From Actinospica robiniae DSM 44927 (lineage in GTDB: Bacteria > Actinomycetota > Actinomycetes > Streptomycetales > Catenulisporaceae), in contig NZ_KI632511.1 in NCBI RefSeq assembly GCF_000504285.1, positions 5,872,154-5,936,153 on the forward strand: 64,000 nt of DNA, read 5' to 3'. The translations under genes were made by a program, and so were the position numbers. Below, piece by piece: positions 6,438-36,560 of this stretch (position 1 is the first letter of the stretch; every line of letters starts with the position of its first letter). The notes beneath the pieces were generated by a model that was not told the origin of the DNA, made no database searches, and was given only the letters and a program-made list of their open reading frames with translations.

Positions 6438-6968
6438 GTGGCTGCATGGATCAACCGCGCCGAGCGCACTGTCTACGAAAGCCCGTGGTTCCGGCTGAAC
6501 CTCGCCGATGTCGAACTTCCGGACGGTCGCCACCTCGATCACTATCTATTGCGTCAACGGCCCGTCGTTCTCACGGCCTGTCTCAACGCTCAGGAGCGGG
6601 TGCTCATGCTCTGGCGCCATCGCTTCATCCCAGACACCTACGGCTACGAGCTGCCTTCCGGCGTCGTGGAGCCGGGCGAAGACCTCGAAGCCGCGGCAGC
6701 GCGCGAGACCCTCGAAGAGACTGGCTGGCAGCCTGGCCCGCTCAAGCACCTACTGACAGTGGAACCGTCGGCCGGGTTCTCCGATGCGGTCCACCACGCC
6801 TACTACGCGGAGTCGGCCGAGTACGTGGGCGACCCGGCCGACGCGATTGAGTCCGACCGGATCGAGTGGGTTCCGCTCGCCGATATCCCGGAGCTCATCT
6901 CCCAGGGCAAGATTCGAGCTGCGAACACGGTAGCCACCTTGCTCATACTCGTGTCGTCCGGGCGGTAG
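6438..6968 (+). CDS. Nudix hydrolase
   Basis: The protein has 176 residues and starts with GTG after GAGGAGG. A complete Nudix box is present (GVVEPGEDLEAAAARETLEE followed by TGW), giving the metal- and diphosphate-binding loop. Family members hydrolyse nucleoside-diphosphate derivatives. In the AICE pSAM2 the Nudix-containing Pif protein blocks redundant transfer into cells that already hold the element, so this gene may play that part; this is by analogy only. It converges on the HAD gene with 9 bp between stops. Confidence 0.9.
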   Translation: MAAWINRAERTVYESPWFRLNLADVELPDGRHLDHYLLRQRPVVLTACLNAQERVLMLWRHRFIPDTYGYELPSGVVEPGEDLEAAAARETLEETGWQPGPLKHLLTVEPSAGFSDAVHHAYYAESAEYVGDPADAIESDRIEWVPLADIPELISQGKIRAANTVATLLILVSSGR

Positions 6969-6977
6969 AGCAGCCCG

Positions 6978-7676
6978 TCAGACGCGGAGCTCCACAGCAG
7001 CGGTTGCCACCTCGGCCATAGAAGTCACGATGAGATCCGCACCAGCGTTGGCGAACCGGTCGATCTTCTCCGGCCGGTTCGCGTACCCAACGACGGCGAC
7101 GCCGGCAGCGTGGGCGCCGTCAATGTCTGCCAGAGAGTCGCCGATCAGGACGGAGTCCGCAGGGCTGGCGCTGAGCGTCTTTATGGCTGCCAGGATCGGC
7201 TCCGGGTTCGGCTTCATGAGGTCCGGTCGCGCGAAGACGCGTCCGCTCACGGGCATGCCGTACCTGATCAGTCGCTGCCGGTTCAGATAGCGGTTGATCG
7301 CGCCCGCCGAGTTGTTGCTCACGACCGCAAGGGCCTTGCCAGCCTCGAACCCACCGATGATGAGCTCACGGCCGTACGGCGTCGGCTGGGCCACCTGCGC
7401 GGCCTCAGCTTCCTCGGCGCACAGCTTCGCTTCCACTTCGCGAAGTAGGTTGGCGCGGCCGAGCTCGGCCGTCCACTTCAGGACTTCGAGCGGGTCCAGT
7501 TCCGCGGCGAGTCCTGCGGGGATCGCCACGCCGGCACCGGTTAGCACGCCACGCAGGGTCTCGGCGACTCCTGGGGCCGGGCGCTTGGAGAAGATGCTGC
7601 ACACCGGGCCGTCGAAATCGAGCAGAATCGAGGTCTTGCGAGACAGCAGCTCTACGAGATCGGCCCGAGCACTCAT
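6978..7676 (-). CDS. HAD-family hydrolase
   Basis: The protein has 232 residues. HAD motifs are in order: LLDFDGPV (motif I, nucleophile Asp), VVSNNS (motif II), KPNPEPIL with the motif III Lys, and VLIGDSLADIDGA (motif IV). It probably dephosphorylates a small phosphometabolite. Its ATG overlaps the stop of the GntR regulator by 4 nt (ATGA), so the two are translationally coupled and share the repressor's promoter. Confidence 0.88.
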   Translation of the reverse strand: MSARADLVELLSRKTSILLDFDGPVCSIFSKRPAPGVAETLRGVLTGAGVAIPAGLAAELDPLEVLKWTAELGRANLLREVEAKLCAEEAEAAQVAQPTPYGRELIIGGFEAGKALAVVSNNSAGAINRYLNRQRLIRYGMPVSGRVFARPDLMKPNPEPILAAIKTLSASPADSVLIGDSLADIDGAHAAGVAVVGYANRPEKIDRFANAGADLIVTSMAEVATAAVELRV

Positions 7677-8539
7677 TCCGCGTACTCCGTTGCGATCGTC
7701 GACCACACCGATTCGAACCACGCACGAGCCGCCTCGACAAATTGGGCGCTAGTCGAGGTCTCATCATCGCTGAGCGCGTAGTGGAACAGCGGGACGTCCT
7801 TCCCCATCAGGTCATAGATGGCCACGGGCTCGCCCTTGATCATGACGTTCCGCTCAGTCACCGGGTAGAAGCCGAAGAACGCTTCCTCGCTGTTGAGAAA
7901 GTAGAGCTTGAACAGCGGCGCAGCACCGTGGACGCGCACTTCAGCCGTGGCTGAGCGCACCAGGCCCAGCTCCGCGAGCTCGCCGACCTGGTCCAAGATG
8001 CCGTCGGCCGCACGACGCGTGATGCGCTCTGCTCGCGCCCGAACCATCGGGTCATCCGACTGAGTCTCGGCCCGCGCCGGCAGCGCCATCGGCCTGGTCA
8101 TGTCCGAGAGCAGCACCCGGATCGCAATCGTCTCGGGGGCGAGCTTTCCAACCCGGATCTTATCGAGTGCCTCAGAAATCGCGGCGGCGAGAGTCTCGCC
8201 CGAGAAACCCGCAAAGTCGATGCTGACGTGCTGCTTCGAGAACGCTGCTTCGATGTGGGGGCGCAGTTCGACGGCTCGTTGGGTCTTGGCCCGAACGAAC
8301 ACGCCGCTTCCTTGCCGACTGATGATCAGACGCTCCGACCTCAGCGGGTCGAGGGCTCGCTTGACCGTTTCGCGGGCCACTCCGAAGCGGGCAGCGAGAT
8401 CGGGCTGAGAGGGGAGCTTGTCGCCGGGGGCAAGCTTGCCGGTGAGGATCGCAGCCCTGAGCCGGTCTGTGATCTGCTGCGATGCCTGCTTGGGGTCGTC
8501 GGGATCGAGCTGTCCGAGGAAGTCCAGAACGTCTGTCAT
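7673..8539 (-). CDS. GntR-family repressor (KorSA-like)
   Basis: The protein has 288 residues from ATG 8539; an in-frame upstream start at 8599 is possible. The N-terminal winged HTH is clear (KLAPGDKLPSQPDLAARFGV then ARETVKRALDPL and RQGSGVFV). The C-terminal part (about 110-288) is not a typical UTRA or FCD domain by eye. Members of this type, such as KorSA of pSAM2, repress the excision and transfer genes. Copies of TGGCTAGCCA lie upstream of this gene and in the facing promoter, which fits autorepression plus repression of the rightward transfer operon. It is coupled to the HAD gene by an ATGA overlap. Confidence 0.85.
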   Translation of the reverse strand: MTDVLDFLGQLDPDDPKQASQQITDRLRAAILTGKLAPGDKLPSQPDLAARFGVARETVKRALDPLRSERLIISRQGSGVFVRAKTQRAVELRPHIEAAFSKQHVSIDFAGFSGETLAAAISEALDKIRVGKLAPETIAIRVLLSDMTRPMALPARAETQSDDPMVRARAERITRRAADGILDQVGELAELGLVRSATAEVRVHGAAPLFKLYFLNSEEAFFGFYPVTERNVMIKGEPVAIYDLMGKDVPLFHYALSDDETSTSAQFVEAARAWFESVWSTIATEYAE

Positions 8540-8556
8540 ACCTCCCAGCCTACAGC

Positions 8557-8647
8557 TGACTAGCCAAGCCAGGGAAGTTTTCCGCGATTCGCTTGACATG
8601 GCTAGCCAAGCCGGTCTAGCTTCATCTCATCACCAGATGGCTAGCCA
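8557..8647. promoter_or_regulatory. Divergent control region with three TGGCTAGCCA-type operators
   Basis: The 10-bp palindrome TGGCTAGCCA occurs at 8599-8608 and 8638-8647, and a 9/10 copy (TGACTAGCCA) at 8557-8566. The first perfect copy lies immediately after a TTGACA -35 hexamer (8593-8598) and before a TAGCTT-like -10 (8617-8622, 18-bp spacer), a classic repressor position for the rightward promoter. The 8557 copy is 18 bp upstream of the GntR start. The GntR protein is the likely ligand. Confidence 0.65.
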
Positions 8648-8686
8648 GGTGAGGCAAGCCCCGACACGAGACCGATGGAGATTCTG

Positions 8687-8908
8687 ATGGCTGTTCAGAT
8701 CACTCGCGCTTGGTTCCCCGGCGTCTACGTCCCGATCGCCAACCTCACCGGAGTGGAGATCCTCCCGGCCCGGTCGTGCCGTGTGGAGGCGGCGGTGTCC
8801 AAGGGCACCGTCTTCCACGGCACCCGCGCCCAGGTTCTCGCCGCCGCCCGAGCCCTCCTCGCCGCTGTCAACGAAGCGGACCAGGCCGCCGCCGAGTCCG
8901 CGCAGTAG
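8687..8908 (+). CDS. Small hypothetical protein, first gene after the repressed promoter
   Basis: 73 residues from ATG 8687 (GGAG 6 nt upstream). The N-terminal half is beta-rich (VQITRAWFPGVYVPIANLTGVEIL) and the C-terminus is an Ala-rich helix (AAARALLAAVNEADQAAAE). Small proteins like this open the transfer operon in many AICEs. No known domain. A short hairpin follows. Confidence 0.65.
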   Translation: MAVQITRAWFPGVYVPIANLTGVEILPARSCRVEAAVSKGTVFHGTRAQVLAAARALLAAVNEADQAAAESAQ

Positions 8909-8919
8909 CCCGCTAATCC

Positions 8920-8938
8920 GGGCCGCTTGGGGCGGCCC
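8920..8938 (+). terminator. Short hairpin
   Basis: GGGCCGC / GCGGCCC arms with a 5-nt loop just after the stop of the small gene at 8687. Probably a weak terminator or attenuator. Confidence 0.35.
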
Positions 8939-9070
8939 ACCCAAATACAACTCAAGAGCGGCACGACGCGTCGAACGCCCTGGTCGAACCGGTTGACGAA
9001 AGAGCCCGGAGGCAACTTTGGCGGACGCGATCCCCAAGACCCTGACTTACTCGCACTCTTGGAGTCGACC

Positions 9071-9475
9071 ATGGCCCAGACCATGCCCCAACGCAACAGC
9101 CCGGTTCGCCCGCTGCGAGCCTCCACCGTCACCGCCATGGTGGAAACGGCCGGCGGAGTCACCCGAAAGTTCGTCATCTGCCCCGCGTGCCGTAGCTACA
9201 CCCAGGTCAAGCGCAATGGACTGGTCGCGCACGACGACAGCAACGGCACCCGGTGCGTCAACTCCCGCCGCGCGCTGATCAATAACCTGACGGACGCCCA
9301 GTGGACGAGCGCATACGCCGCCGCGTCGCGCCATGCCGGACAGATCCGCTCTTCCCGCTCGTTCTGCAAGCCCCAGCCCCAGACATCGGAATCGGTCGTC
9401 GACCTGGCCCGCCGCCGGGGCAAGGAGATCGAAGCGCGTGCCGCGATCGGTCGTCTCGAACGCGCTCTCGCCTGA
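9071..9475 (+). CDS. Small zinc-ribbon-like element protein
   Basis: 134 residues from ATG 9071 (TTGGAG upstream). The middle carries CPAC, then VAHDDSNGTRC, a possible Cys2-His/Cys zinc site, within FVICPACRSYTQVKRNG. The tail is basic and helical (RRRGKEIEARAAIGRLERAL). Function unknown. It lies between the repressor-controlled promoter and the spread genes, so it probably belongs to the transfer region. A long hairpin follows. Confidence 0.6.
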   Translation: MAQTMPQRNSPVRPLRASTVTAMVETAGGVTRKFVICPACRSYTQVKRNGLVAHDDSNGTRCVNSRRALINNLTDAQWTSAYAAASRHAGQIRSSRSFCKPQPQTSESVVDLARRRGKEIEARAAIGRLERALA

Positions 9476-9490
9476 CCCGCTCTCTCACGC

Positions 9491-9527
9491 CCTCGCCCCG
9501 GTCACGACTCGCGTGACCGGGGCGAGG
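9491..9527 (+). terminator. Strong hairpin
   Basis: 15-bp perfect arms (CCTCGCCCCGGTCAC and complement) with a 7-nt loop, 15 bp after the zinc-ribbon gene. Likely a terminator. Confidence 0.6.
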
Positions 9528-9563
9528 CGTTCCCTGGCCCTATCACCGGTTTCGGAGGCCACC

Positions 9564-10046
9564 GTGAATCGTCCTGTTCCCAACTCCGCGTCGCTGGTCA
9601 TCCGCGACGCGCAAAGCACTGACGACCTCGCCGAGCTACGCGACGTGCTCACCCGCGCCCACAGTGCTGGCGCGGCGGTCACCGTCGTCTACGCCCCTAC
9701 CAGCGTCACTCATCACCACGCCGCACCCGCCGTGGTCGCCACCACACCGGCCGCCCAGCCCTACGCGGCCCCGGCCGGCCATCCCGGCATCGACGTCGAC
9801 CTGACCTGCTACGGCAGCGGCGGATACGCGGCCCTGCCGACGAACCTGGCACCGCTTCCCGCTGTGGGCGAGTCGCGCACTGTTGCGCCGCTGGTGCTGC
9901 TGCTGTCGACCTGGGCCGGTGGCGGCTCCGCCGTTGCTGTGGCGTTGACCTCAGGCAACCCGTACGCCGTCGCCGCGCTCGTTCTCGCGTTCTTCGGCGC
10001 CGGCGGCTCGCTCGCCGCGCTGCACAGACACGACTCTCGGCCCTGA
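9564..10046 (+). CDS. Small membrane protein, SpdB-like
   Basis: 160 residues from GTG 9564 (CGGAGG upstream). An N-terminal polar region with IRDAQSTDDLAELRDVL is followed by an Ala/Pro/His-rich linker and two hydrophobic segments near residues 107-125 and 133-152 (APLVLLLSTWAGG; AVAALVLAFFGAGG). Size, topology and place before the DNA pump resemble the Spd spread proteins of Streptomyces conjugative plasmids, which help plasmid spread within the mycelium. The assignment rests on topology and context. Confidence 0.6.
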   Translation: MNRPVPNSASLVIRDAQSTDDLAELRDVLTRAHSAGAAVTVVYAPTSVTHHHAAPAVVATTPAAQPYAAPAGHPGIDVDLTCYGSGGYAALPTNLAPLPAVGESRTVAPLVLLLSTWAGGGSAVAVALTSGNPYAVAALVLAFFGAGGSLAALHRHDSRP

Positions 10047-10138
10047 CGGCCCACGACCGGCGGCAGGCGCCTGTGAAGGGCGCTGCCGTCGCACATGGGC
10101 AATCAGCCCGGCTCCGCTAGGTGAAGGAGATGCCTGTT

Positions 10139-10525
10139 ATGGCGAACCTGACGATCCTCTCGTTCGGCTACCTGCACGAGGTGCCGGACGCGACCATGAC
10201 TGTGGACCTGCGTCAGATCCTGCGCGACCCGCACATCGACCCGGCACTGCGCGCCAAGGACGCCCGCGACGCCGAAGTGTTCGCGAAGGTCGCCGGCACC
10301 TTCGGCGCGCTCGAACTGGCCGACCGGCTGCGCGAGGTCGGCGCCGTGCTCAGCATGCTCGCGCAGGTCACCGGCCACCCGACCACCCTCGCGATCGGCT
10401 GCGCGGGCGGGCGGCACCGCTCCGCCGCCCTGGCGATGCTCATCGCCGACGAACTGACCGCCGAGGGCCACGAAGTCACCGTGACCCACCTGCACGTCGA
10501 CCGGCCCGTCGTCGCCCGCTCGTGA
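10139..10525 (+). CDS. Stand-alone RapZ C-terminal-domain protein
   Basis: 128 residues from ATG 10139 (AAGGAG 9 nt upstream; ATG 10130 is too close to the SD). It matches the C-terminal domain of RapZ/YvcJ: an SFGYLHEVPDA start, a VDLRQILRDPHIDPALR segment and the signature AIGCAGGRHRSAALA. The N-terminal P-loop kinase domain of RapZ is absent. In E. coli the C-terminal domain binds regulatory RNA and a sugar-nucleotide signal; a role in this element is unknown. Similar short proteins occur in actinobacteria under the label ATPase. Confidence 0.8.
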   Translation: MANLTILSFGYLHEVPDATMTVDLRQILRDPHIDPALRAKDARDAEVFAKVAGTFGALELADRLREVGAVLSMLAQVTGHPTTLAIGCAGGRHRSAALAMLIADELTAEGHEVTVTHLHVDRPVVARS

Positions 10526-11199: not shown

Positions 11200-12198
11200 A
11201 TGTCCACCACCACATACGAAGCGGCTCCGGCGCCGATCAACGGCCATCGGTTCGACCGCTCTCCACCCTTCACTGAGCTCGACCCGACCCCGCCGCCGGA
11301 CCGTGCCGCTTCCCGTCTCTCCGGCGGATGGACGGTACTGACCGCCATTACCGGCCTGTTGGCTGTTTACCTCGCACTCGGCGGCATGACGCTCTCGTTC
11401 CGTGCGGTCTCCGCGGAGATGCGGCCGGCGTTCGGGGCGTGGGCATGGCTGGTGCCGGTGGTCGCAGACCTGTCCGTCCTGGTGTTCTCTGGGGTCGACC
11501 TGGTCTTGGAGAAGCTCGACATGCCCCACCCGCTGGCCCGATGGACCGTGTACGGCGCGACCTTCGGCACGGTGTATCTGAACTACACCGCTGGCGGAGA
11601 CGCCGCCGGTCGCGTCGCGCACGTGCTGATGCCCTCGATCTGGGTTGTGTTCATCGAACTGATGCGACACATCGTGCGGCGCCGGGTCAGCCTGGAGACC
11701 GGCCGACGCCGTGACCCGATCCCGGCCGCGCGCTGGTTCCTCGCCCCGTGGCCGACCGCGAAACTTTGGCGGCGGATGGTGCTGTGGCGCATCAACTCCT
11801 ACACCGCCGCACTCGCCGCCGAGCGGCGACGCCTGGCGGCTATCGCCGTGGTCCGCGAGACGCACGGACGCGCGTGGCGCTGGCGCGTCTCGCCGCTGCT
11901 GCGCATGCAGATCGCCATGGGCGAACTCGGCGCCGAACAGCTCAACGCCCAGATCACGGACCGGAGCGACGGCCACAACAGCGGCCAGGAGACGGCCATG
12001 GACTCGGCCGACGACGGCCAGGGAGACAGCCAAGAGTCGGCCAAGCCCCGGCCGAAGCGTCGGCCGTCGCGCGGCCAGTCGACGGCCGAGAAGGTGGCCA
12101 AGCTGACGGCCACTCACCCCGACTGGTCGGCCGCGCAGGTGGCCGAGAAGCTCGAAATCGGCGAGCGCACGGCCCGCCGCTACATGACCGGCAAATAG
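11200..12198 (+). CDS. DUF2637 membrane protein with C-terminal HTH
   Basis: The protein has 332 residues. The N-terminal half holds about four hydrophobic segments (near residues 46-66, 77-105, 113-130 and 137-157), as in DUF2637 proteins found next to DNA pumps in AICEs. A basic cytoplasmic region follows (VRRRVSLETGRRRDP). The last 35 residues form a helix-turn-helix (DWSAAQVAEKLEIGERTARR), so the protein may bind DNA at the membrane. The SD is weak. A 16-bp perfect hairpin separates it from the pump gene. Confidence 0.8.
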   Translation: MSTTTYEAAPAPINGHRFDRSPPFTELDPTPPPDRAASRLSGGWTVLTAITGLLAVYLALGGMTLSFRAVSAEMRPAFGAWAWLVPVVADLSVLVFSGVDLVLEKLDMPHPLARWTVYGATFGTVYLNYTAGGDAAGRVAHVLMPSIWVVFIELMRHIVRRRVSLETGRRRDPIPAARWFLAPWPTAKLWRRMVLWRINSYTAALAAERRRLAAIAVVRETHGRAWRWRVSPLLRMQIAMGELGAEQLNAQITDRSDGHNSGQETAMDSADDGQGDSQESAKPRPKRRPSRGQSTAEKVAKLTATHPDWSAAQVAEKLEIGERTARRYMTGK

Positions 12199-12337: not shown

Positions 12338-14545
12338 ATGTCCATCGAAACCGAGCCCGTAAACGGCCACGCCCACCCGAACGCCGACGTGCGAGTCATC
12401 ATCGGAGAACTCGCGGACGGCACGTCGACCTCGACGCCGCGCAGCGTCGCTACGACCGCGCAGCGCGCTCGCCTGGCCCGTCAAATTCGCCGATCCCGCC
12501 GCGCCCTGCGACTCGCCCGCTCCGGGCGTGTTCGGGCCGTCGCATTCGTCCGGCACGAAACCACCCGCGCCGTCGCCCGCTTCCTGGCGCGCGAGATCGT
12601 GTACACGCTGGTTGGGAGCAGGGTCGTTGCGGGGTGGATCCGCGACGCCCTGACCAACTCGCCGCAGCGCCGGATGATGAAGTCCGCTGCGGCCGTGGGC
12701 GATCACGCGATGGCCCTGGAGTGGGAGGCGCGCGCCGCCGCTCACGCCCAGGCTCGCCGCGAGTGGGTCATGACCCTGCTCGCCGCTCCGGTCCACATCG
12801 CGCGCGGCGCTGCCTACGTCGCCGGGGGCATGCTCGCCCTCGGCATCGCAATGACCTGGAAGTCCGGCCACCCGGGCGAGGTTCTCGCCCCGTTCATCGG
12901 GGTCGCCGACGTCATCGACGCCGTGACCGGGTTCGTCTCTGCGACGTGGCGCCCGGCTCTGACCGCCTCGCCCTTCCTGACCGCCGCTTTCTGTTCCTGG
13001 GCTGGGCACACCAGGGGCGAGATCCCCGCCCGCTTCGCCCCGGCCGGACAGACCCCGGACACGGTTGCTATCACCCCGTCCATCGTCGTCACCGCGCTGC
13101 GCGACCTCGGCATTGCCGCGATGCGCAAAGCGATCACGGACATGGCCGACGCCGGCGCCGCCATGCTCTCCCCGATCCGGATTGCCGGATGCGGCGTGGA
13201 AGTCGATGTCACCCTTCCGTCCGGCGTGTCCACCGAGGAAGTCCAGAACCGCCGGCGCAAGCTCGCCGAGAACCTCGGTCGTCACCGCCACGAACTGTTC
13301 ATCACGATCCCGGAGGCTGCGCGCACGGTGCGGCTGTGGATCGCTGATTCCGGCGCTCTGGACGAACCGATCGGCCCGTCCCCGCTCGTTCTGGACTCCA
13401 CCATGGGCGCGGACTGGCGTACCGGCCGGGCCCCGTGGGGCGTCGACCTGCGCGGCGACGCCGTGGGCGTGTCCGTATTCCAGCGCCACCAGCTGGTCAC
13501 CGGCCTGTCCAACCAGGGCAAGACCGCGAGTCTGCGAGCTCTGGCGTTGTGGCTGGCGCAAGACCCGACCGTGGAACTGTGGATCGCGGACCTCAAGGGC
13601 GTGGGCGACTGGGCCATGTTCGAAGGCCTCGCCACGCGGTTGATCCAGGGCCCGACCGATGAGCACGTGATCGAGACCACGCACATGCTTGAAGACGCGA
13701 TCGAGGAGATGGAGCGGCGCATCATGGCGCTCGCCGAGTCCGGCTCGACGGAGGGCATTACGCGCGAGATGGAGCGTACGCCCGGCTCCGGGTTCCACCC
13801 GCTGGTCGTCATCGTCGATGAGGCTCAGGTGGCGTTCATGTGCCCGGCCAAGGGAGATGACGGGCGCCCCTACGGTGGATCCAAGGCCACGTCTCGCTAC
13901 TTCATGGCTGCCCGCAAGCTGCACAACCAGGGCCGTGCGCTCAACGAGACCCTTTGGCAGGGCACGCAGGACCCGACCGACCAGAACCTGCCCAAGCTGG
14001 TGCGCGAGGGTGCGCACACCCGGGCGTCCCTCGCACTCGGCACCGAGTCGCAGTCGCGGATGGCGTTGGGAGACAAGGCCGTCGACGGCGGAGCCGCGCC
14101 GCACGAACTGCGCCAAGGCCTCGACAAGGGCACGCTCGTGGTCGCGGGCGACGGGGTCAAGCTCGCTCCGGGACAGTCCTCGGTGACGGTGCGCACGCAC
14201 TTCATCGGTGGCGATGACGCGGTCACCCTCGCGGAGCGGGCCAAGGCCAAGCGGAAGGCGATCGTCACCAACGCCCGCAGGGCGGAGGCGGAAGCCAACC
14301 GGGACTTGCTCGCCGACCTCGCCGAGATCCTCGGCGCCGAACCCGTTCCGGTCGCCGACGTGCCCCCGCTGCTGCGCGACCTCGCCCCCGGATACAAGCC
14401 GTACGCCGGTCTGTCCGGCAAGGCGCTGCGCGAGCAGCTCGCCACGCTCGGGGTCAAGGTCGCTTCCACTGGCAACCGGTGGCCGGTCGACCCCGCCGAG
14501 ATTCGCAAGGCCCTGGCACTCCGCTCGGTCGACGACGCCGATTGA
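12338..14545 (+). CDS. FtsK/SpoIIIE-family DNA translocase (TraB-like)
   Basis: 735 residues, ATG 12338 after GAAGGAGG. It has a polar basic N-terminus, membrane-associated segments near residues 145-215, a Walker A GLSNQGKTA at about 390, Walker B LVVIVDEAQ at about 489, and a C-terminal winged-helix-like end (GLSGKALREQLATLGVKV). Known TraB proteins form hexamers that move double-stranded plasmid DNA between mycelial cells and recognise short repeats in the clt locus through the C-terminal domain. A repeat cluster follows directly downstream. Confidence 0.92.
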   Translation: MSIETEPVNGHAHPNADVRVIIGELADGTSTSTPRSVATTAQRARLARQIRRSRRALRLARSGRVRAVAFVRHETTRAVARFLAREIVYTLVGSRVVAGWIRDALTNSPQRRMMKSAAAVGDHAMALEWEARAAAHAQARREWVMTLLAAPVHIARGAAYVAGGMLALGIAMTWKSGHPGEVLAPFIGVADVIDAVTGFVSATWRPALTASPFLTAAFCSWAGHTRGEIPARFAPAGQTPDTVAITPSIVVTALRDLGIAAMRKAITDMADAGAAMLSPIRIAGCGVEVDVTLPSGVSTEEVQNRRRKLAENLGRHRHELFITIPEAARTVRLWIADSGALDEPIGPSPLVLDSTMGADWRTGRAPWGVDLRGDAVGVSVFQRHQLVTGLSNQGKTASLRALALWLAQDPTVELWIADLKGVGDWAMFEGLATRLIQGPTDEHVIETTHMLEDAIEEMERRIMALAESGSTEGITREMERTPGSGFHPLVVIVDEAQVAFMCPAKGDDGRPYGGSKATSRYFMAARKLHNQGRALNETLWQGTQDPTDQNLPKLVREGAHTRASLALGTESQSRMALGDKAVDGGAAPHELRQGLDKGTLVVAGDGVKLAPGQSSVTVRTHFIGGDDAVTLAERAKAKRKAIVTNARRAEAEANRDLLADLAEILGAEPVPVADVPPLLRDLAPGYKPYAGLSGKALREQLATLGVKVASTGNRWPVDPAEIRKALALRSVDDAD

Positions 14546-15992: not shown

Positions 15993-17972
15993 GTGTCCGC
16001 TCGCGCTCTCCATCTCGTTCCCAACCAGCCCGACGACGGCCCGGAATTCAGCCTTCCCCATGACGTAGACGCTGAGCGCGCTGTGCTCGGCGCCGCGATG
16101 CTCGGCGGCCCCGCGATCCTTGACGAGATCCGGGACACGCTCGACGCAGCAGCCTTCTACCGGCCTGCCCATGAGTCCGTTTTCCACATCCTGTGCGACC
16201 TCGCCGACACCGGCCGCCCGCTTGACGCGCTCGCCGTAGCGAACGCGTTGGGCTCCGAACTCAACCGCGTCGGTGGACTCGGCTACCTCCACAGCCTGAT
16301 GGAGGTAGTACCGACCGCAGCGAACGGCCCCTACTACGCCGAGCTGGTCAGGGATAAGGCCTACGCGCGCAAGCTCGTCGAAGTCGGCATGCGTCTGGCG
16401 CAGATGGGTCGCAGTGAGTTCGAACCGGACCTACTCGCCGCCGCACAGCGCGAAATCCTCACCCTCACCACACGCTCATCACGCGGATGGAGCGAACCCG
16501 TGCCCCTGTCCACGCAAAGGCCCGTCGTCCCCTTCCCCATCCACGCCCTGCCTCGGTGGGTACGTGCGAAGGTCGAAGCCGTCGCGCACGACACCCAAAC
16601 GCCTCTCGATCTCGCCGGTACGCTCGCCCTCGCCTGCCTCGCCACGGCCGCCGGAGGGCTCGCAATCGTCGAAGTTCGGCCGGAATCCGGCTGGTCCGAG
16701 CCGGTCAATCTTTACCTTGTCGCGGCTCTCCCGCCCGGCTCGCGGAAGTCTCCCGTGTTCTCCTCCATGACCTCGCCGATCCTCTCCACCGAACGGCAGC
16801 TTCAGGAAGAGATGGTGCCGCGCATCACCGAACTCGCGGTGGATCGGAAGGCCGCTGACGAATACGCCGCACGGATGGCTGACGCACTGGCGAAGTCCCC
16901 GATCGATGAACGGGACTCGGCCCGGCACGAAGCCCACCAGGCCGCGCTGAATGCCGCCGCAATCGTCGTTCCGAAGGAACCGCGGCTGTTCACTGACGAC
17001 GCCACGCCGGAACAGATTTCGACGATGCTCGCTGACCAGGATGGCCGCTTGGCCGTGCTTTCCGCCGAGTCGGAGATCTTCGACGTGATCGCCGGAAGGT
17101 ACAGCGGGAACCCGAATCTCAATGTCGTTCTCAAGGGCCATGCGGGCGACGCGATCCGCGTAGACCGCAAGGGGCGACCCTCCGAGTCCATTGACCACCC
17201 TGCGCTCACGCTCGGGGTATGCACTCAGCCCGCTGCTCTCGCCGATCTCGCCGCGATTCCCGGCGCAGCCGGACGCGGATTGCTCGCGCGCTTCCTGTTC
17301 AGCATTCCTGAGGTCAACATCGGAATGCGTGACACCAAGCCCCGTCCGGCCGACCGTGCCGCGCATGAGGCTTATGACCGCACGCTCACCACGCTGGTTC
17401 TGACGATGCGAGACCGTGCCGAGCCCGTTCGCCTCAGTCTCGCGGCTGGTGCCTCGGATCTTCTCGACGCAGTCGCCGAGGAGATCGAGCGCTCCATGGC
17501 CGAGGGCGGCTCTCTGGCGCACCTCCGCGACTGGGGAGCGAAGTCCGCCGGCGCCATGATGCGCATCGCCGGTCTGCTTCACCTCGCCGAGCACCTGAGC
17601 GAGGGATACGGCCGACCGATCAGCGTCGAGACCCTTGCCGCTGCTCACACTCTGATCGAGTACTACACCGCCCATACCCTCGCGGCGTTCGACAGCATGA
17701 CGACGGACCCGGCCACCGACCGCGCCACCGCCGTACTCCGCTGGATCCAGCGGACCGAGCCGGTACGGTTCACCGCGCGCGACGCCTTCCGGGCCATGCC
17801 CCGATCCAAGGCGGCGAAGATGTCGGACGTCGAGCCCGCTCTTTCCCTGCTCGAACAGCACGGCTACATCCGGCGTCGCCCGGCTCCGCCGTCTTCTGCG
17901 CGAGGCGGACGGCCCGCCGCGCCCGAGTTCGAAACCAACCCGCTCACGACCGGTGCTGCTCTGCACAAGTAG
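15993..17972 (+). CDS. DnaB N-terminal domain fused to a DUF3987-like region
   Basis: 659 residues from GTG 15993 (TTGGAG upstream). Residues about 25-150 match the N-terminal domain of replicative helicase DnaB; by eye 45-50% identity with the chromosomal DnaB in this window, including LMEVVPTAAN against LMESVPTAAN. There is no DnaB ATPase core. Instead residues from about 180 form a DUF3987-like region with a degenerate P-loop (PPGSRKS), VLSAESEIFD and a helical tail ending in a winged-helix-like stretch. It may serve element replication by recruiting host primase or engaging host DnaB. No other replication gene is recognised in the element. Confidence 0.8.
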   Translation: MSARALHLVPNQPDDGPEFSLPHDVDAERAVLGAAMLGGPAILDEIRDTLDAAAFYRPAHESVFHILCDLADTGRPLDALAVANALGSELNRVGGLGYLHSLMEVVPTAANGPYYAELVRDKAYARKLVEVGMRLAQMGRSEFEPDLLAAAQREILTLTTRSSRGWSEPVPLSTQRPVVPFPIHALPRWVRAKVEAVAHDTQTPLDLAGTLALACLATAAGGLAIVEVRPESGWSEPVNLYLVAALPPGSRKSPVFSSMTSPILSTERQLQEEMVPRITELAVDRKAADEYAARMADALAKSPIDERDSARHEAHQAALNAAAIVVPKEPRLFTDDATPEQISTMLADQDGRLAVLSAESEIFDVIAGRYSGNPNLNVVLKGHAGDAIRVDRKGRPSESIDHPALTLGVCTQPAALADLAAIPGAAGRGLLARFLFSIPEVNIGMRDTKPRPADRAAHEAYDRTLTTLVLTMRDRAEPVRLSLAAGASDLLDAVAEEIERSMAEGGSLAHLRDWGAKSAGAMMRIAGLLHLAEHLSEGYGRPISVETLAAAHTLIEYYTAHTLAAFDSMTTDPATDRATAVLRWIQRTEPVRFTARDAFRAMPRSKAAKMSDVEPALSLLEQHGYIRRRPAPPSSARGGRPAAPEFETNPLTTGAALHK

Positions 17973-18045: not shown

Positions 18046-18157
18046 ATCTATACCCACCCCCCTTGGTCGCGCACGCCCGCTGGGCAGTCTGTCCGACCGA
18101 CGTGCAGAGCCTAACCCGTGGCACCGACAGAGCCATTGACGCGCAAGACGCCCCGCT

Positions 18158-18222
18158 GACGAGCTGACAGAACCGACACAACCCAGTACGGCCGCCGGTT
18201 GTGTCGGTTCTGTCAGCTTGTC
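18158..18222. repeat. 26-bp inverted repeat upstream of the excisionase gene
   Basis: Arms 18158-18183 and 18197-18222 are complementary at 25 of 26 positions with a 13-nt loop. The region 17973-18327 has no gene; it holds the nested hairpin and this large one. With about 105 bp to the excisionase ATG it could be a double hairpin origin, a recombinase or repressor site, or an efficient terminator. Confidence 0.7.
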
Positions 18223-18327
18223 GGCACCCCCGATGCCTCCGCGTCGGACAGCTCAGTCCGTCCCTTCGCGCGGCCCTGTGCAGTCCCGACAGGGCTGCCA
18301 GGGGTGCGCGCTCCGAAAGGATCCGCG

Positions 18328-18513
18328 ATGGCACGAGACGAGTTGCTGACCGTCCCCCAAGTCGCCAGCGAACTCCAGATCTCCCGCGCAACTCTCTACC
18401 GCTGGGTGGAGACCGGCAAGGGACCCAAGCCGCTCAAGCTCCCGGGCGGAACGCTCCGCTTCCGCCGCTCCGCTCTCGACCGGTTCCTCACCGAGTGCTC
18501 CGCGCTCGTCTAA
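18328..18513 (+). CDS. Excisionase-type MerR-like HTH protein
   Basis: 61 residues. It is a complete small winged-HTH of the excisionase class: LLTVPQVASELQISRATLYR, WVETGKG, then LRFRRSALDRFL. Such proteins bend the attachment site and drive integrase toward excision. Upstream AAAGGA gives the SD. It is 80 bp upstream of the integrase, but an intrinsic terminator separates them. Confidence 0.88.
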   Translation: MARDELLTVPQVASELQISRATLYRWVETGKGPKPLKLPGGTLRFRRSALDRFLTECSALV

Positions 18514-18593: not shown

Positions 18594-20021
18594 ATGGCGA
18601 TCTCGTTCACTGTCCGCATCTGGAACATCCGCCCTCTGAAGCGTGCGACCAAGACCACCTACCAAGTCAGGTGGGTCGTCGGCCCCGAGAACCACACCAA
18701 GACGTTCGCAACCAAAGCTCTCGCCGAGAGCTATCGAGCCACCCTCACCTCTGCGATGGCGCGGGGCGAGGCGTTCGATATCGCCTCTGGCCTGCCCGTC
18801 TCGCTCGCCCGCAGCGCGAACAACACCACCTGGTATGACTTGGCCGTCGCGTTCTGCGACACCAAATGGAAGCGCTGGGCCCCAGGCAGCCGCGCTGCCG
18901 CCGCCGAAGCTCTCGCCACCGTCACTGCTGTTCTGGTCGACAGTGACCACGGCCCGGACGTCGTCGAGCGCCGGCATGCCCTCGAAAAGTGGGCATTCAA
19001 CAAGGCTGCCCGCGACGGAGGGGAAGTGCCCGAGGCGCACGTCGTGGCGGTCGGCTGGCTTCAGGAGCACTCCGTGTCGGTGGGCGCGCTGACGGATGCG
19101 GCGACCGTCCGCCGCGCCCTGGAAGCGATCTCGTCTAAGCTCGACGGCAGCCCGGCCGCCGCGACCACGGCCAACCGGAAGCGGATGGTCTTCCACCAGG
19201 CGCTTGAGTACGCGGTAGAGCGCTGCCATCTCGAAGCCAACCCGCTTGACAGGGTCAAGTGGAAGGCGCCGAAGACGTCAGACTCCGTGGACCGGAGATC
19301 TGTCGTCAACCCGACCCAGGCGCGAGCGCTGATCACCTCCGTCTCGGAGATCAACGGTCGGATGGCGCTGTTCTTCGCGCTGATGTACTTCGCGGCGCTG
19401 CGCCCGGCCGAAGCGGTCGCGCTCAGGCTCGAAGACTGCGAGCTCCCGGAACAGGGCTGGGGCATGCTCTATCTCTCGCGGTCAATCCCCATGACCGGAG
19501 CCGAGTGGACCGACAGCGGTGAGCCACACGAGAGCCGCTCGCTCAAGCACCGCGCAAAGGAGGAAGTCCGTCCGGTGCCAGCGTGCCCGGAGCTGGTGAG
19601 TTGGATCAGACGGCACGCCAAGAGCTACGGCACTGCGCCGGACGGACGTCTTCTCAGGGGAACACGTGGCGAGCGGCTATCAGAGGACTCCTGCGGCCGA
19701 GTCTGGCGCGCCGCACGCAGCGCCACACTCGACGCCCGCCAGGCTGCTTCCCCACTGGCTAAGCGGCCCTACGACCTCCGCCACGCGGCCGTCTCGACGT
19801 GGCTCAACGCCGGGGTTCAGCCGACCCTCGTTGCCGAGTGGGCGGGCCACAGCGTTCAGGTGCTCCTGCGCGTCTACGCGAAGTGCATCGAGGGCCAGGA
19901 CGCGCAGAGCCGCAAGCTCATCGAGCACGCGCTTGGCGCTGCGGAGACTGGGGCGGAGCCGTCGAGCGAGTCGACCGAGACCGTTCGCAGAGACGAGACC
20001 GAGCAAGCCCCAGACGAGTGA
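18594..20021 (+). CDS. Tyrosine recombinase (site-specific integrase)
   Basis: 475 residues, ATG after GAGGAG. An N-terminal AP2-like DNA-binding segment and an SAM-like core-binding domain are followed by the catalytic domain: the first Arg in AALRPAEAVALRLED (about 270), a Lys/Arg region LKHRAKEEVRPVP, DLRHAAVSTWL (about 391), GHS and the nucleophile Tyr in LRVYAKC. It should integrate the element into the 3' half of tRNA-Ser(UGA). It lies about 1.4 kb from the right attachment repeat, with one cargo gene between. Confidence 0.93.
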   Translation: MAISFTVRIWNIRPLKRATKTTYQVRWVVGPENHTKTFATKALAESYRATLTSAMARGEAFDIASGLPVSLARSANNTTWYDLAVAFCDTKWKRWAPGSRAAAAEALATVTAVLVDSDHGPDVVERRHALEKWAFNKAARDGGEVPEAHVVAVGWLQEHSVSVGALTDAATVRRALEAISSKLDGSPAAATTANRKRMVFHQALEYAVERCHLEANPLDRVKWKAPKTSDSVDRRSVVNPTQARALITSVSEINGRMALFFALMYFAALRPAEAVALRLEDCELPEQGWGMLYLSRSIPMTGAEWTDSGEPHESRSLKHRAKEEVRPVPACPELVSWIRRHAKSYGTAPDGRLLRGTRGERLSEDSCGRVWRAARSATLDARQAASPLAKRPYDLRHAAVSTWLNAGVQPTLVAEWAGHSVQVLLRVYAKCIEGQDAQSRKLIEHALGAAETGAEPSSESTETVRRDETEQAPDE

Positions 20022-20116: not shown

Positions 20117-21220
20117 TCAGCCGCCGTTGCGGCCCATGAGGTCGGTTTCGCGGGCGGGCGCGATGCGGGATAGCCAATGGGCTGCTTCGGCTGGCTCGAT
20201 CTCCCGGTCGAGGGTCAGTGTGGGCACCATCGATGGGTAAACGCGTCCGTTGTCCCACCCATAGATCCCGTTCGCTGGGCGGACCACGAGAACGCGCACG
20301 CCATCGAGCGGCTCGATGTCGGCGGGCCAGCCCTCGGGGGCTATGTAGCTGCCATGGCCGTCGAACAGGCGGAAGCGGCGCGTGATCGGCGTGGTCAGGT
20401 TGAACGGTCCCGGCGGGGCGGTTGTGGCTGCGTCGACCCACGCGGGCTCGGGTGGCTGTGCGTCGAGCAGGCCGCCGCGGCCTGGGCCCATCAACCGGTC
20501 GGCGAGCAGTGTGTGCAACTGGTAGTTGTCGCCCACCCCGCTCATCGTGAGATGGAAACCACGCCTGGAGGAGGGGTCGAGGACGATGAGCGGCTCGTCA
20601 TCGAGTACGAGGCACAAGCCGTGGAGGCAGCGGGCGCCCTCTGATCGATCTTTCAGAGTCTCGGCGGCTTCGGTGACGTCTTCGCGCCGGGCCATCCGGG
20701 CTCGAAATTCGCGGCTGGTCATCATCGCCGTGTTCAATGGGCCGATCCAGTCATCCAGGGTGAACCAGGCGCATGCGATGATCGCAAACTCCTGCTCGTC
20801 GCGCCCCTCCCGCCGAGCTAGGGCAACGAGCGCGTCAACCACTTCTGGTACGGCCGCCGAATCGGACATATCATGCGACCTCGGCAGCTGTCTGTCCGGT
20901 GCAGCCCGCGGCCAGACCATCTCAACCACCACGTAACGCGCCATCGTCGCAAATGCGCGCTCAGGCAGAACCTCGATCAGGGGCAAAGGTGATGCGCCGC
21001 GGGCGATGGCGGCCCCGGCGATCCTCCCGAGACTGGCGTAGTATCCGGCCTTTCCGCCCAACATCGGCGCCAGCTTCTCAACGAGTGTGTTCAGTTCGTC
21101 GACGCCGCAGTGCTCGACCTCCGCGGCCAGGCTGCGAAATTCTTCGAAGAAGCGGTCGTTACTACCCTGCCGCATGGCGTCGCGTATCTCAGCAAGTCGA
21201 GCATCGAATCGGGAGGTCAT
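20117..21220 (-). CDS. Hypothetical cargo protein at the right end
   Basis: 367 residues, starting at ATG 21220. No signal peptide or membrane segment. The N-terminal 120 residues are helical (RFDARLAEIRDAMRQG, FRSLAAEVEHCGVDELNTLVEKL), and the C-terminal part is mixed with Trp and Pro (ACAWFTLDDWIGPLNTAMM; GIYGWDNGRVYPSM). I do not recognise a domain. It faces the integrase and lies between it and the attachment repeat, where AICEs often carry accessory genes, including defence or immunity functions; no such role can be shown. Confidence 0.7.
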   Translation of the reverse strand: MTSRFDARLAEIRDAMRQGSNDRFFEEFRSLAAEVEHCGVDELNTLVEKLAPMLGGKAGYYASLGRIAGAAIARGASPLPLIEVLPERAFATMARYVVVEMVWPRAAPDRQLPRSHDMSDSAAVPEVVDALVALARREGRDEQEFAIIACAWFTLDDWIGPLNTAMMTSREFRARMARREDVTEAAETLKDRSEGARCLHGLCLVLDDEPLIVLDPSSRRGFHLTMSGVGDNYQLHTLLADRLMGPGRGGLLDAQPPEPAWVDAATTAPPGPFNLTTPITRRFRLFDGHGSYIAPEGWPADIEPLDGVRVLVVRPANGIYGWDNGRVYPSMVPTLTLDREIEPAEAAHWLSRIAPARETDLMGRNGG

Positions 21221-21339: not shown

Positions 21340-21358
21340 CGCGCATGTGCCGCGATCA
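21340..21358 (+). repeat. 19-bp end repeat, copy 3 (17/19)
   Basis: CGCGCATGTGCCGCGATCA differs from copies 1 and 2 at two positions and lies 93 bp left of the right attachment repeat. Confidence 0.5.
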
Positions 21359-21398
21359 ATGCGTACGTGAGCGTACGAAAGCCCAAGGATGAGACAGT

Positions 21399-21434
21399 TC
21401 AGGGCCGGTTCCGAGGGTTCGGAACCGGCCCTGA
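21399..21434 (-). terminator. tRNA-Ser terminator supplied by the element
   Basis: 14-bp perfect arms (TCAGGGCCGGTTCC and complement) with an 8-nt loop, just beyond the 3' end of the tRNA. Because it lies inside the element, the element brings its own tRNA 3' end and terminator. Confidence 0.7.
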
Positions 21435-21450
21435 GGTGGCCTTACTGATG

Positions 21451-21515
21451 CTCAAAGCGGAGGGCGTGGGATTCGAACCCACGAGAACGGTCACCCGTCC
21501 TAGCAGTTTTCAAGA
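21451..21515. repeat. Right attachment repeat (within tRNA-Ser)
   Basis: Identical over 65 bp with 2579-2643. It covers the 3' half of the complete tRNA-Ser gene. Confidence 0.9.
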
Positions 21516-21546
21516 CTGCCGCCATCGGCCACTAGGCGAGCCCTCC
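21458..21546 (-). tRNA. tRNA-Ser(UGA)
   Basis: 89 nt with a GGAGGGC / GCCCTCC acceptor stem, discriminator G, a long variable arm as in class II tRNAs, anticodon loop CTTGAAA with anticodon TGA, and T-loop GGTTCGAATCC. CCA is not encoded. It is the integration target of the element to its left. Confidence 0.95.
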
Positions 21547-35114: not shown

Positions 35115-36560
35115 GTGCCCGGTTACGACGGGACCGAGGTGTACGGTCCGCCGGAGCCGCCGACCGCCTTCGATCCCGGCCCCGGGCCCGGATACCACGA
35201 CCCCGGCCCCCGGGCCGGCGGTCCGTCGGCCTTCGAACGCACGCCGCCGCAGGACGTCGCGGCCGAGCAGGGCGTGCTCGGCGGCATGCTGCTGTCCAAG
35301 GACGCCATCGCCGACGTCATCGACGTGGTCAAGGGCCGGGACTTCTACCAGCCCAAGCACGAGCAGATCTTCGACGCGATCCTCGACCTCTACGGCCGTG
35401 GCGAGCCCGCCGACGCCGTCACCGTCGCGAACGAGCTGACCAAGCGCAACGAGCTGGCCCGGGTCGGCGGCCCCGCCTATCTCCATACTCTGATGGAGTC
35501 GGTGCCCACCGCGGCCAACGCCGGCTACTACGCCGAGATCGTGCACGAGCGGGCCATCCTGCGCCGGCTGGTCGAGGCCGGCACCCGGATCACGCAGATG
35601 GGCTACGCCACCGACGGCTCGGACATCGACGAGATCGTCAACCGGGCCCAGTCCGAGATCTACAGCGTCACCGAGCAGCGGGCCGGCGAGGACTACGCCC
35701 CGCTGGCCGACATCATGGAAGGCGCGCTGGACGAGATCGAGTCCATCGCCAACCGCTCCGGCCAGATGACCGGCGTCCCCACCGGCTTCACCGATCTCGA
35801 CAGCCTCACCCAGGGCCTGCACCCCGGCCAGATGGTCATCGTCGCGGCCCGCCCGGCCATGGGAAAGTCCACCATCGGCCTGGACTTCGCCCGCTCCTGC
35901 TCCATCAAGAACGGCCTGACCTCGGCCATCTTCTCGCTGGAGATGGGCCGCAACGAGATCACCATGCGCCTGCTCTCGGCCGAGGCCCGGGTCGCCCTGC
36001 ACCACATGCGCTCCGGCACCATGACCGACGACGACTGGGCCCGCCTCGCCCGCCGCATGGGCGAGGTCTCCGCCGCCCCCCTGTTCATCGACGACTCGCC
36101 GAACATGTCGATGATGGAGATCCGGGCCAAGTGCCGCCGGCTCAAGCAGCGCCACGACCTGCGCCTCGTCATCGTCGACTACCTGCAGCTGATGAGCGGG
36201 GCCAGCGGTTCGCGCCGCCCGGAGAACCGCCAGCAGGAGGTCTCCGAGATGTCCCGTAACCTCAAGCTGCTGGCCAAGGAGCTCGAGGTCCCGATCGTCG
36301 CGATCGCCCAGCTCAACCGAGGTCCCGAGCAGCGCACCGACAAGAAGCCGATGATGTCCGACCTGCGTGAGTCCGGCTCCCTCGAGCAGGACGCCGACGT
36401 CGTCATCCTGCTGCACCGCGAGGACGCCTACGAGCGCGAATCCCCCCGCGCCGGCGAAGCAGACCTCATCATCGCCAAGCACCGTAACGGTCCGACCGCC
36501 ACCATCACCGTCGCGTTCCAGGGCCACTACTCGCGCTTCGTGGACATGCAGCAGAGTTAG
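35115..36560 (+). CDS. dnaB: Replicative DNA helicase
   Basis: 481 residues from GTG after GAAGGAGG. N-terminal domain (AAEQGVLGGMLLSKDAI to SVPTAAN) that contacts primase, a linker, and the RecA-like core with Walker A PAMGKST (about 249), Walker B VIVDYLQLMSG and LRESGSLEQDADV. It unwinds DNA ahead of the replication fork as a hexamer. The element protein at 15993 carries a copy of its N-terminal domain only. Confidence 0.97.
   Translation: MPGYDGTEVYGPPEPPTAFDPGPGPGYHDPGPRAGGPSAFERTPPQDVAAEQGVLGGMLLSKDAIADVIDVVKGRDFYQPKHEQIFDAILDLYGRGEPADAVTVANELTKRNELARVGGPAYLHTLMESVPTAANAGYYAEIVHERAILRRLVEAGTRITQMGYATDGSDIDEIVNRAQSEIYSVTEQRAGEDYAPLADIMEGALDEIESIANRSGQMTGVPTGFTDLDSLTQGLHPGQMVIVAARPAMGKSTIGLDFARSCSIKNGLTSAIFSLEMGRNEITMRLLSAEARVALHHMRSGTMTDDDWARLARRMGEVSAAPLFIDDSPNMSMMEIRAKCRRLKQRHDLRLVIVDYLQLMSGASGSRRPENRQQEVSEMSRNLKLLAKELEVPIVAIAQLNRGPEQRTDKKPMMSDLRESGSLEQDADVVILLHREDAYERESPRAGEADLIIAKHRNGPTATITVAFQGHYSRFVDMQQS

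Follow-up and report, generated by a model that had tools for sequence, protein, structure and literature searches.

In a 64,000-nt stretch of Actinospica robiniae DSM 44927 (contig NZ_KI632511.1, positions 5,872,154-5,936,153; the whole stretch is called the window here and coordinates are counted within it), an 18,872-bp (18.9-kb) integrative element resembling the actinomycete integrative and conjugative elements (AICEs) occupies a tRNA-Ser gene, with its genes in the order tra-rep-xis-int. Its rep gene encodes a fusion of the N-terminal domain of the bacterial helicase DnaB with a DUF3987 region, and the latter is confidently predicted to be an AAA+ motor like that of the minichromosome maintenance (MCM) helicases. 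Prediction and genomic context indicate that this fusion is very probably the element's own initiator helicase, a role that an earlier note on this DNA, made from the letters alone, overlooked. The fuller proposal, in which the initiator helicase of this AICE-like element carries a DnaB collar that binds the C-terminal domain of the host primase DnaG, is considered probable. Sequence comparison and structure prediction provide its basis, which consists of both folds, the conservation of key residues in the motor, the position in the rep slot, an adjoining iteron array, the exchange with primase-polymerase (Prim-Pol) genes and the purifying selection on the N-domain of relatives.

Domain structure of the fusion protein

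15993-17972, + strand: rep gene, 659 aa, with DnaB_N, DUF3987 (predicted MCM-like AAA+) and a C-terminal winged-helix-like segment (from Pfam, AlphaFold2 and relatives)
16050-16466, + strand: DnaB N-terminal domain with helical hairpin, residues 20-158 (from the 2r5u_C match, BLASTP and Pfam)
16542-17693, + strand: predicted MCM-like AAA+ motor, residues 184-567, with a Walker-A-like PPGSRKS loop (core folded alone, structure match)
17709-17951, + strand: C-terminal winged-helix-like segment, residues 573-653, likely the iteron reader (from predicted secondary structure)

The open reading frame (ORF) starts with GTG. PF00772 (DnaB_N) matched residues 21-121 (E = 1.2e-23; 83.6 bits against a cut-off of 23) and PF13148 (DUF3987) matched residues 202-567 (E = 2.9e-97; 326.5 bits against a cut-off of 27). 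These were the only Pfam families found at E up to 1; neither the RecA-type DnaB_C motor PF03796, which the host DnaB showed in that scan at E = 1.7e-105, nor any MCM family model matched. Against the chromosomal DnaB (35115-36560) BLASTP aligned 69 of 145 residues as identical (48%; E = 3e-33), including the motif pair LMEVVPTAAN in the fusion and LMESVPTAAN in DnaB, and in the 9.92-Mb genome the fusion was matched at E <= 0.001 in two places only, its own gene and the chromosomal DnaB gene. The AlphaFold2 model of the full-length protein had a mean pLDDT of 91.4, and its residues 20-158 superposed on the Mycobacterium tuberculosis DnaB N-domain (2r5u_C) with Z = 21.1 and a root-mean-square deviation (rmsd) of 1.3 over 136 residues. 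The earlier note had already described a DnaB N-domain joined to a DUF3987-like region, with about 45-50% identity to DnaB and the same motif, and the profile search and the structure prediction of the protein alone that it proposed, together with the BLASTP alignment, agree with it on these points. Its statement that no helicase core follows is wrong, as DUF3987 is itself a motor of another superfamily, predicted to be MCM-like AAA+.

The motor core was also predicted alone (pLDDT 93.6, pTM 0.89). In VIA-align, which re-ranks Foldseek's own candidates only, all 50 rows listed were MCM, CMG, OCCM or replisome entries (Z 16.2-18.2). The best match was 6mii_B (Z = 18.2, rmsd 3.6 over 270 residues, 11% identity); rmsd values were mostly 3.5-4.0 and rose to 7.9-10.8 where the alignment also took in the C-terminal segment. 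Among 62 aligned sequences K252 (in the PPGSRKS loop), S357 and R433 were invariant and E359 nearly so; by our own reading S357 and E359 would belong to the Walker B region and R433 would be the arginine finger. A likely fold and job are thereby assigned to DUF3987. The last ~80 residues form helices and strands in a winged-helix-like pattern in the AlphaFold2 model, and because of this tail and the MCM-like fold match, the predicted architecture is a DnaB collar on an MCM-like motor followed by a likely DNA-reading tail. In relatives, purifying selection acts on both parts: across 12 overlapping pairs, drawn from loci other than the window, the ratio of nonsynonymous to synonymous substitution (dN/dS) ranged over 0.05-0.28 in the N-domain and 0.06-0.23 in the motor. 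A scan for defence families gave nothing in the fusion, and one weak hydrolase match in an HAD-like protein of the element.

Exchange of DnaB_N and Prim-Pol

Relatives were collected in two overlapping sets. Among 391 genomes of the order, 78 had a match at E <= 1e-40, with 90 matches altogether, of which 24 include the DnaB domain and 66 start after it (core-only). A search of a public genome collection gave no match with the single fusion protein as query; with the motor-core alignment as query 253 relatives were confirmed, and the best 80 were kept. DnaB_N fusions among these 80 occur in Actinospica, Streptomyces, Kitasatospora, Actinoplanes, Paractinoplanes, Catenuloplanes, Pseudosporangium and Actinomadura.

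Counted over these 80 loci and the window, for which the value was set from a separate Prim-Pol search, 24 loci carry DnaB_N and lack Prim-Pol, 56 show the reverse, one (L090, with no Prim-Pol profile match among its upstream ORFs) has neither, and none has both. In other words, an upstream Prim-Pol gene, lying 84-464 bp from the motor, is present at 56 of the 57 loci lacking DnaB_N and at none of the 24 carrying it; the 24 include the window, L115, and L112 and L117, in which the N-domain is frame-broken. In the order-level set, PF09250 was not found within 8 kb on the same contig for any of 24 fusions in 20 genomes, some contigs being short. Five of the first six core-only relatives scanned had an upstream PF09250 gene, and the sixth (L047) had a Prim-Pol relative recognised by a local profile. 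Of the 66 core-only matches 24 were examined, and 23 had a Prim-Pol-like ORF upstream; at the remaining one, L028 (the same locus as L117), DnaB_N lies in another frame. One upstream gene in each of 10 fusions (the nearest gene, except in L038) gave no Prim-Pol match. Some other DUF3987 proteins also come with primase-type modules, i.e., a fused Prim-Pol in L149, PriCT_1 in L155, and a Toprim domain of DnaG type fused in L229 and L231 and in the neighbouring upstream gene in L230. A viral protein of 1264 aa (L200:3772-7563) was also observed, with ~585 residues without a Pfam match followed by DnaB_N and then DUF3987.

The collar and the host primase

Three DnaG-contact positions of Geobacillus DnaB, I119, I125 and Y88, the last of which we take to be such a position, map to V129, L135 and Y98 of the fusion. 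Across 24 fused N-domains the Y88 position is Y in 23, the I119 position is V, I or A in 23, and the I125 position is L or I in 23. I119 and I125 have been described as DnaG-binding residues on the N-domain hairpin (PMC2761005). The host DnaG (642 aa; L232:898-2826, minus strand) has both Pfam DnaB-binding domains (PF10410 and PF08278). Because of the Prim-Pol exchange, the kept contact positions and these DnaG domains, all of them indirect, we infer that the collar rather probably recruits the host's DnaG and so stands in for a primase gene of the element. Recruitment of host primase had been suggested in the earlier note, and this indirect evidence favours it.

A different role of the domain has to be considered as well. 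In DnaB the N-domain also builds the collar, and the fusion could be an initiator helicase in which paired DnaB domains serve ring assembly only, with no part in priming. The hairpin kept in the model and the dimers and linker described for the DnaB domain (PMC2761005) fit this possibility, which we regard as unlikely, since 57 of the 81 loci have the same motor without the domain and the domain occurs where Prim-Pol is absent. It is improbable that the domain recruits another host factor instead of DnaG, such as the helicase loader DciA or DnaB itself. DnaB does have several partners, a DnaB-DciA structure is available (8a3v), and the host DnaG might prime without being recruited; this explanation leaves unaccounted for, however, why the alternatives identified in the slot are primase-type modules. 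Slightly less probable still is the suggestion in the earlier note that the protein poisons or redirects the host DnaB, by mixed rings or sequestration of DnaG, and so shuts down host replication in favour of the element. The 48% identity to the host N-domain would suit such an attack, and no other finding speaks for it or calls for it: the domain has a conserved motor attached and an iteron array adjoining, it stands in the slot of the sister primase-helicase pair within a maintained element family, and its N-domain lineage lies apart from the host DnaB.

Candidate replication origin

18155-18225: candidate origin, an inverted repeat with 29-nt arms (each about three 9-bp iterons, the outermost degenerate) and a 13-nt centre (from repeat finding, a matrix scan and reading)

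The two arms are 93% complementary. The array was found by reading the sequence, by repeat finding and with a position weight matrix from other loci, at many of which short repeat copies follow rep in one sense and then in the opposite sense. The GACAGAAC repeat occurs in many Prim-Pol elements and some Micromonosporaceae fusions, and the CCGCAGAAAC repeat in most Streptomyces fusions. The matrix was made from 173 sites at 29 other loci, with the motif class GACAGAA picked after the window sequence had been seen and the CCGCAGAA class left unscanned. Its two best matches in the 64 kb (22.4 bits) are at 18163 (+) and 18203 (-), and being arms of one inverted repeat they are not independent; the fourth and fifth best matches also lie in the array. 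The best match per shuffled window (n = 15) scored 7.9-19.5 bits. By reading, five Micromonosporaceae fusions (L067, L076, L078, L086 and L088) share this layout, with 9-bp iterons in two inverted arms near the stop codon, with iteron variants mostly matching between the arms. Counting 8-mers downstream of rep gave nothing in the window, though of the 23 other fusions 14 had p = 0.00 against 60 shuffles. An exact-7-mer symmetry test, which left out L081 for having too little DNA, was positive for the downstream region at 40 of 79 loci and for the control regions at 0 of 78 and 1 of 78.

Since several loci also have GC-rich repeats upstream, repeats taken by themselves are weak evidence. The initiator helicases of Staphylococcus aureus pathogenicity islands (SaPIs) and of the staphylococcal cassette chromosome mec (SCCmec) are described as binding iterons that adjoin their own gene (PMC7581432), which provides a close precedent for an array beside rep. 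The stretch 18155-18225 is a candidate for the element's origin. Arrays occur in Prim-Pol and DnaB_N elements alike, and for this reason the iterons are probably read by the motor or the tail and not by the collar.

Observations that weigh against the proposal

Several results do not favour the proposal of a collar that recruits DnaG to an initiator helicase at this origin. For the fold, Foldseek with the motor core alone gave nothing at E <= 0.001; its top hit was an MCM entry at 1.6e-3, and RuvB and ComM were also listed. For the origin, the exact-7-mer symmetry test gave p = 0.41 in the window and 0.99 in the nearest relative, L066, and the positive loci comprised 33 of 56 core-only loci and only 7 of 23 fused ones. 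As to the collar, 4 of the 24 fused N-domains have Ala and one has Ser at the I119 position. Of 74 columns that do not vary among 18 chromosomal DnaBs, only 28 are conserved in >= 80% of the fused N-domains, so that outside the DnaG-contact positions the domain has diverged considerably.

With respect to the exchange, the fused locus L115 has only 640 bp of upstream DNA, which barely tests for Prim-Pol, and a scan of 10 viral DUF3987 proteins left 7 with neither a primase-type domain nor DnaB_N above the cut-off ahead of the motor. Only 3-4 independent switches between DnaB_N and Prim-Pol were counted, all in the same direction, and a tree-aware sign test, for which fewer than six independent switches cannot give 0.05, is therefore unable to reach that level. 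Moreover, mutation of a primase-polymerase in ICETh2 of Thermus was reported to leave the element's replication unaffected (PMC7693054), and a primase beside such a helicase thus need not prime replication.

Origin of the N-domain and of the fusion

The earlier note took the N-domain to be a copy of that of the host DnaB. In the N-domain tree it groups instead with the N-domain of another element, that of L066, and a clade of the Actinospica element with chromosomal N-domains was rejected (p = 0.028; the group was named after the tree had been seen). These two results argue against a recent copy of the host domain, and because of them the N-domain looks like an old element-borne domain. Parsimony puts 4 changes of the fusion label on the motor tree, and no fewer than 3 when only branches with good support are counted. 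That all whole fusions go back to one origin was rejected on this tree (p = 3.5e-9), and a single origin of the N-domains alone was not (p = 0.27), and exchange of domains or modules between elements is therefore likely. Deep placements are unsure, as the motor tree has long branches that come together and the tree of the N-domains is both short and poorly supported.

Broken copies do exist in this family: in L112 and L117 the N-domain lies in more than one frame, or in a frame other than that of the motor. They could suggest that the fusion is a dead chimaera, produced by recombination with a DnaB gene, as could a second fusion copy in L032 that matches residues 3-461 only. We consider such an origin highly improbable, given the purifying selection on both parts in relatives, the many open copies in several families and the high-confidence fold. 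In L032 (which is L066 reversed) both fusion genes stand in tandem on a single contig (3373-5355 and 7552-9159), the partial copy being the second. Another tra-rep-int element, at L226:6152-7870 and 8488-10080 (G048:C17), joins DnaB_N to a DUF3987 motor that has diverged strongly, and its integrase contains an internal LacI-type helix-turn-helix (HTH) match (PF00356).

Borders and gene content of the element

2467-2643: distal attachment (att) repeat, with 2579-2643 identical to 21451-21515 (65 bp)
11200-12198, + strand: DUF2637 protein, upstream of tra (PF10935, E = 9.1e-16)
12338-14545, + strand: Tra, DNA translocase of FtsK/SpoIIIE type (PF01580, 26 bits against a cut-off of 24; phrog_1358, E = 1.5e-23)
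18328-18513, + strand: Xis-like HTH_17 protein, 61 aa (PF12728, E = 1.7e-14)
18594-20021, + strand: tyrosine integrase (PF00589, E = 1.7e-7; phrog_1, E = 5e-30)
21340-21515: proximal att repeat, overlapping the 3' part of tRNA-Ser, direct repeat with 2467-2643
21457-21546, - strand: tRNA-Ser(tga), integration site (from a tRNA gene call)

The element shows the AICE hallmarks of a Tra protein of FtsK/SpoIIIE type and an integrase with integration in a tRNA gene flanked by direct repeats. The att repeats extend ~110 bp past the identical stretch (2467-2578 and 21340-21450) at lower identity, and each end includes a terminator-like hairpin. Pfam scans of the element's ORFs matched no replication family of a known kind; for a few further ORFs the scan used NCBIfam and PHROGs alone, and the smallest were left unscanned. 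RepSA (PF20199) was not found in the element, and its one match in the genome (G000:C1:6857092-6858369, E = 1.7e-131) is ~1 Mb away, so that a second element with a known type of initiator may be present there. The nearest Prim-Pol match in the genome is 339 kb from the element. DUF3631 was matched neither in the element ORFs scanned with Pfam nor elsewhere in the genome, in a search that also matched in no control genome. As none of RepSA, RepAM (DUF3631) and Prim-Pol was found among its scanned ORFs, the element is called AICE-like. The earlier note had seen no recognised initiator, and in the ORFs scanned no separate one was found; what it did not take into account is that the fusion itself stands in the rep slot by the iteron array.

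Genes for a NUDIX protein, an HAD-like hydrolase and a GntR regulator lie side by side at 6438-8599, a trio that resembles the control region of pSAM2. A lone RapZ C-terminal domain is encoded at 10121-10525 (PF22740, E = 2.3e-23), and a 367-aa ORF at 20117-21220 (- strand), between the integrase and the proximal att repeat, had no family match in any scan made.

Comparison with known systems

The fusion occupies the slot between tra and xis/int, like the replication modules of Prim-Pol with an SCO4618-like protein (RepPP) in AICEs such as SLP1 (PMC3218068). In Prim-Pol AICEs the Prim-Pol gene is described just upstream within the replication module (PMC3218068), and the core-only relatives resemble them in this respect. 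Unlike those modules, the fusion is without Prim-Pol and has DnaB_N instead. The same ATPase domain is found in PrimQH and all3500, where it is fused to archaeo-eukaryotic primases and was predicted to represent a novel helicase family of mobile elements (PMC5862659). DUF3987 helicases with such primase fusions are named YfjI family protein in plasmid records; the fusions described there are with primases and not with DnaB_N, and the MCM-like fold is assigned here.

SCCmec Cch/Cch2 and SaPI Rep are likewise initiator helicases of mobile elements with iterons near the gene, Cch being MCM-like with a replaceable upstream primase module (CcPol-MP) (PMC7581432, PMC10061031); in contrast to the fusion, they are described with DUF927 or D5-type motors and an encoded primase, and no DnaB collar. 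With bacterial DnaB the fusion shares the N-terminal collar domain, including the hairpin of I119 and I125 (PMC2761005), and differs in having a predicted MCM-like AAA+ motor and no RecA-type DnaB_C motor. Like the MCM helicases it has, by prediction, an AAA+ fold (Z about 18), and it ends in a winged-helix-like segment; the identity is ~11%, no MCM Pfam model matches and DnaB_N replaces the MCM N-terminal tier. It is already known that mobile elements can carry primase-helicase pairs and that DUF3987 is a putative helicase (PMC5862659, PMC7581432, PMC10061031). In the titles, abstract beginnings and passages of the open-licence literature searched, neither a fusion of DnaB_N with DUF3987 nor a DnaB collar in the primase slot is described.

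Proposed mechanism and its meaning

After excision, the winged-helix-like tail would bind the inverted iterons at 18155-18225, and the MCM-like AAA+ part would form a ring, probably one per arm, and unwind the element. The N-terminal DnaB domain would be the outer collar of the ring and bind the C-terminal domain of the host DnaG, whereby the host would provide the primers which sister elements make with their own Prim-Pol. The result would be a hybrid replisome, in which an MCM-like initiator helicase with a DnaB collar draws the host DnaG to its own iteron origin, and we hold this to be about as probable as its contrary. Similarly, as part of the same idea, our confidence is evenly divided on whether the collar and the encoded Prim-Pol are interchangeable primase modules that have been swapped at least three times.

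Helicases of the MCM kind are typical of archaea and eukaryotes and run 3'-5' with the N-terminal collar leading, and DnaG sits behind DnaB at the fork. If the motor of the fusion also runs 3'-5' with its collar first, DnaG would ride ahead at the fork, on the side from which the lagging strand exits, the reverse of the arrangement with DnaB. For AICE-like elements whose initiator could not be assigned to a known type, the finding puts forward a replication module, and it supplies a concrete candidate origin at 18155-18225. It would also offer a natural test of whether a grafted collar can couple a helicase of one lineage to a primase of another.

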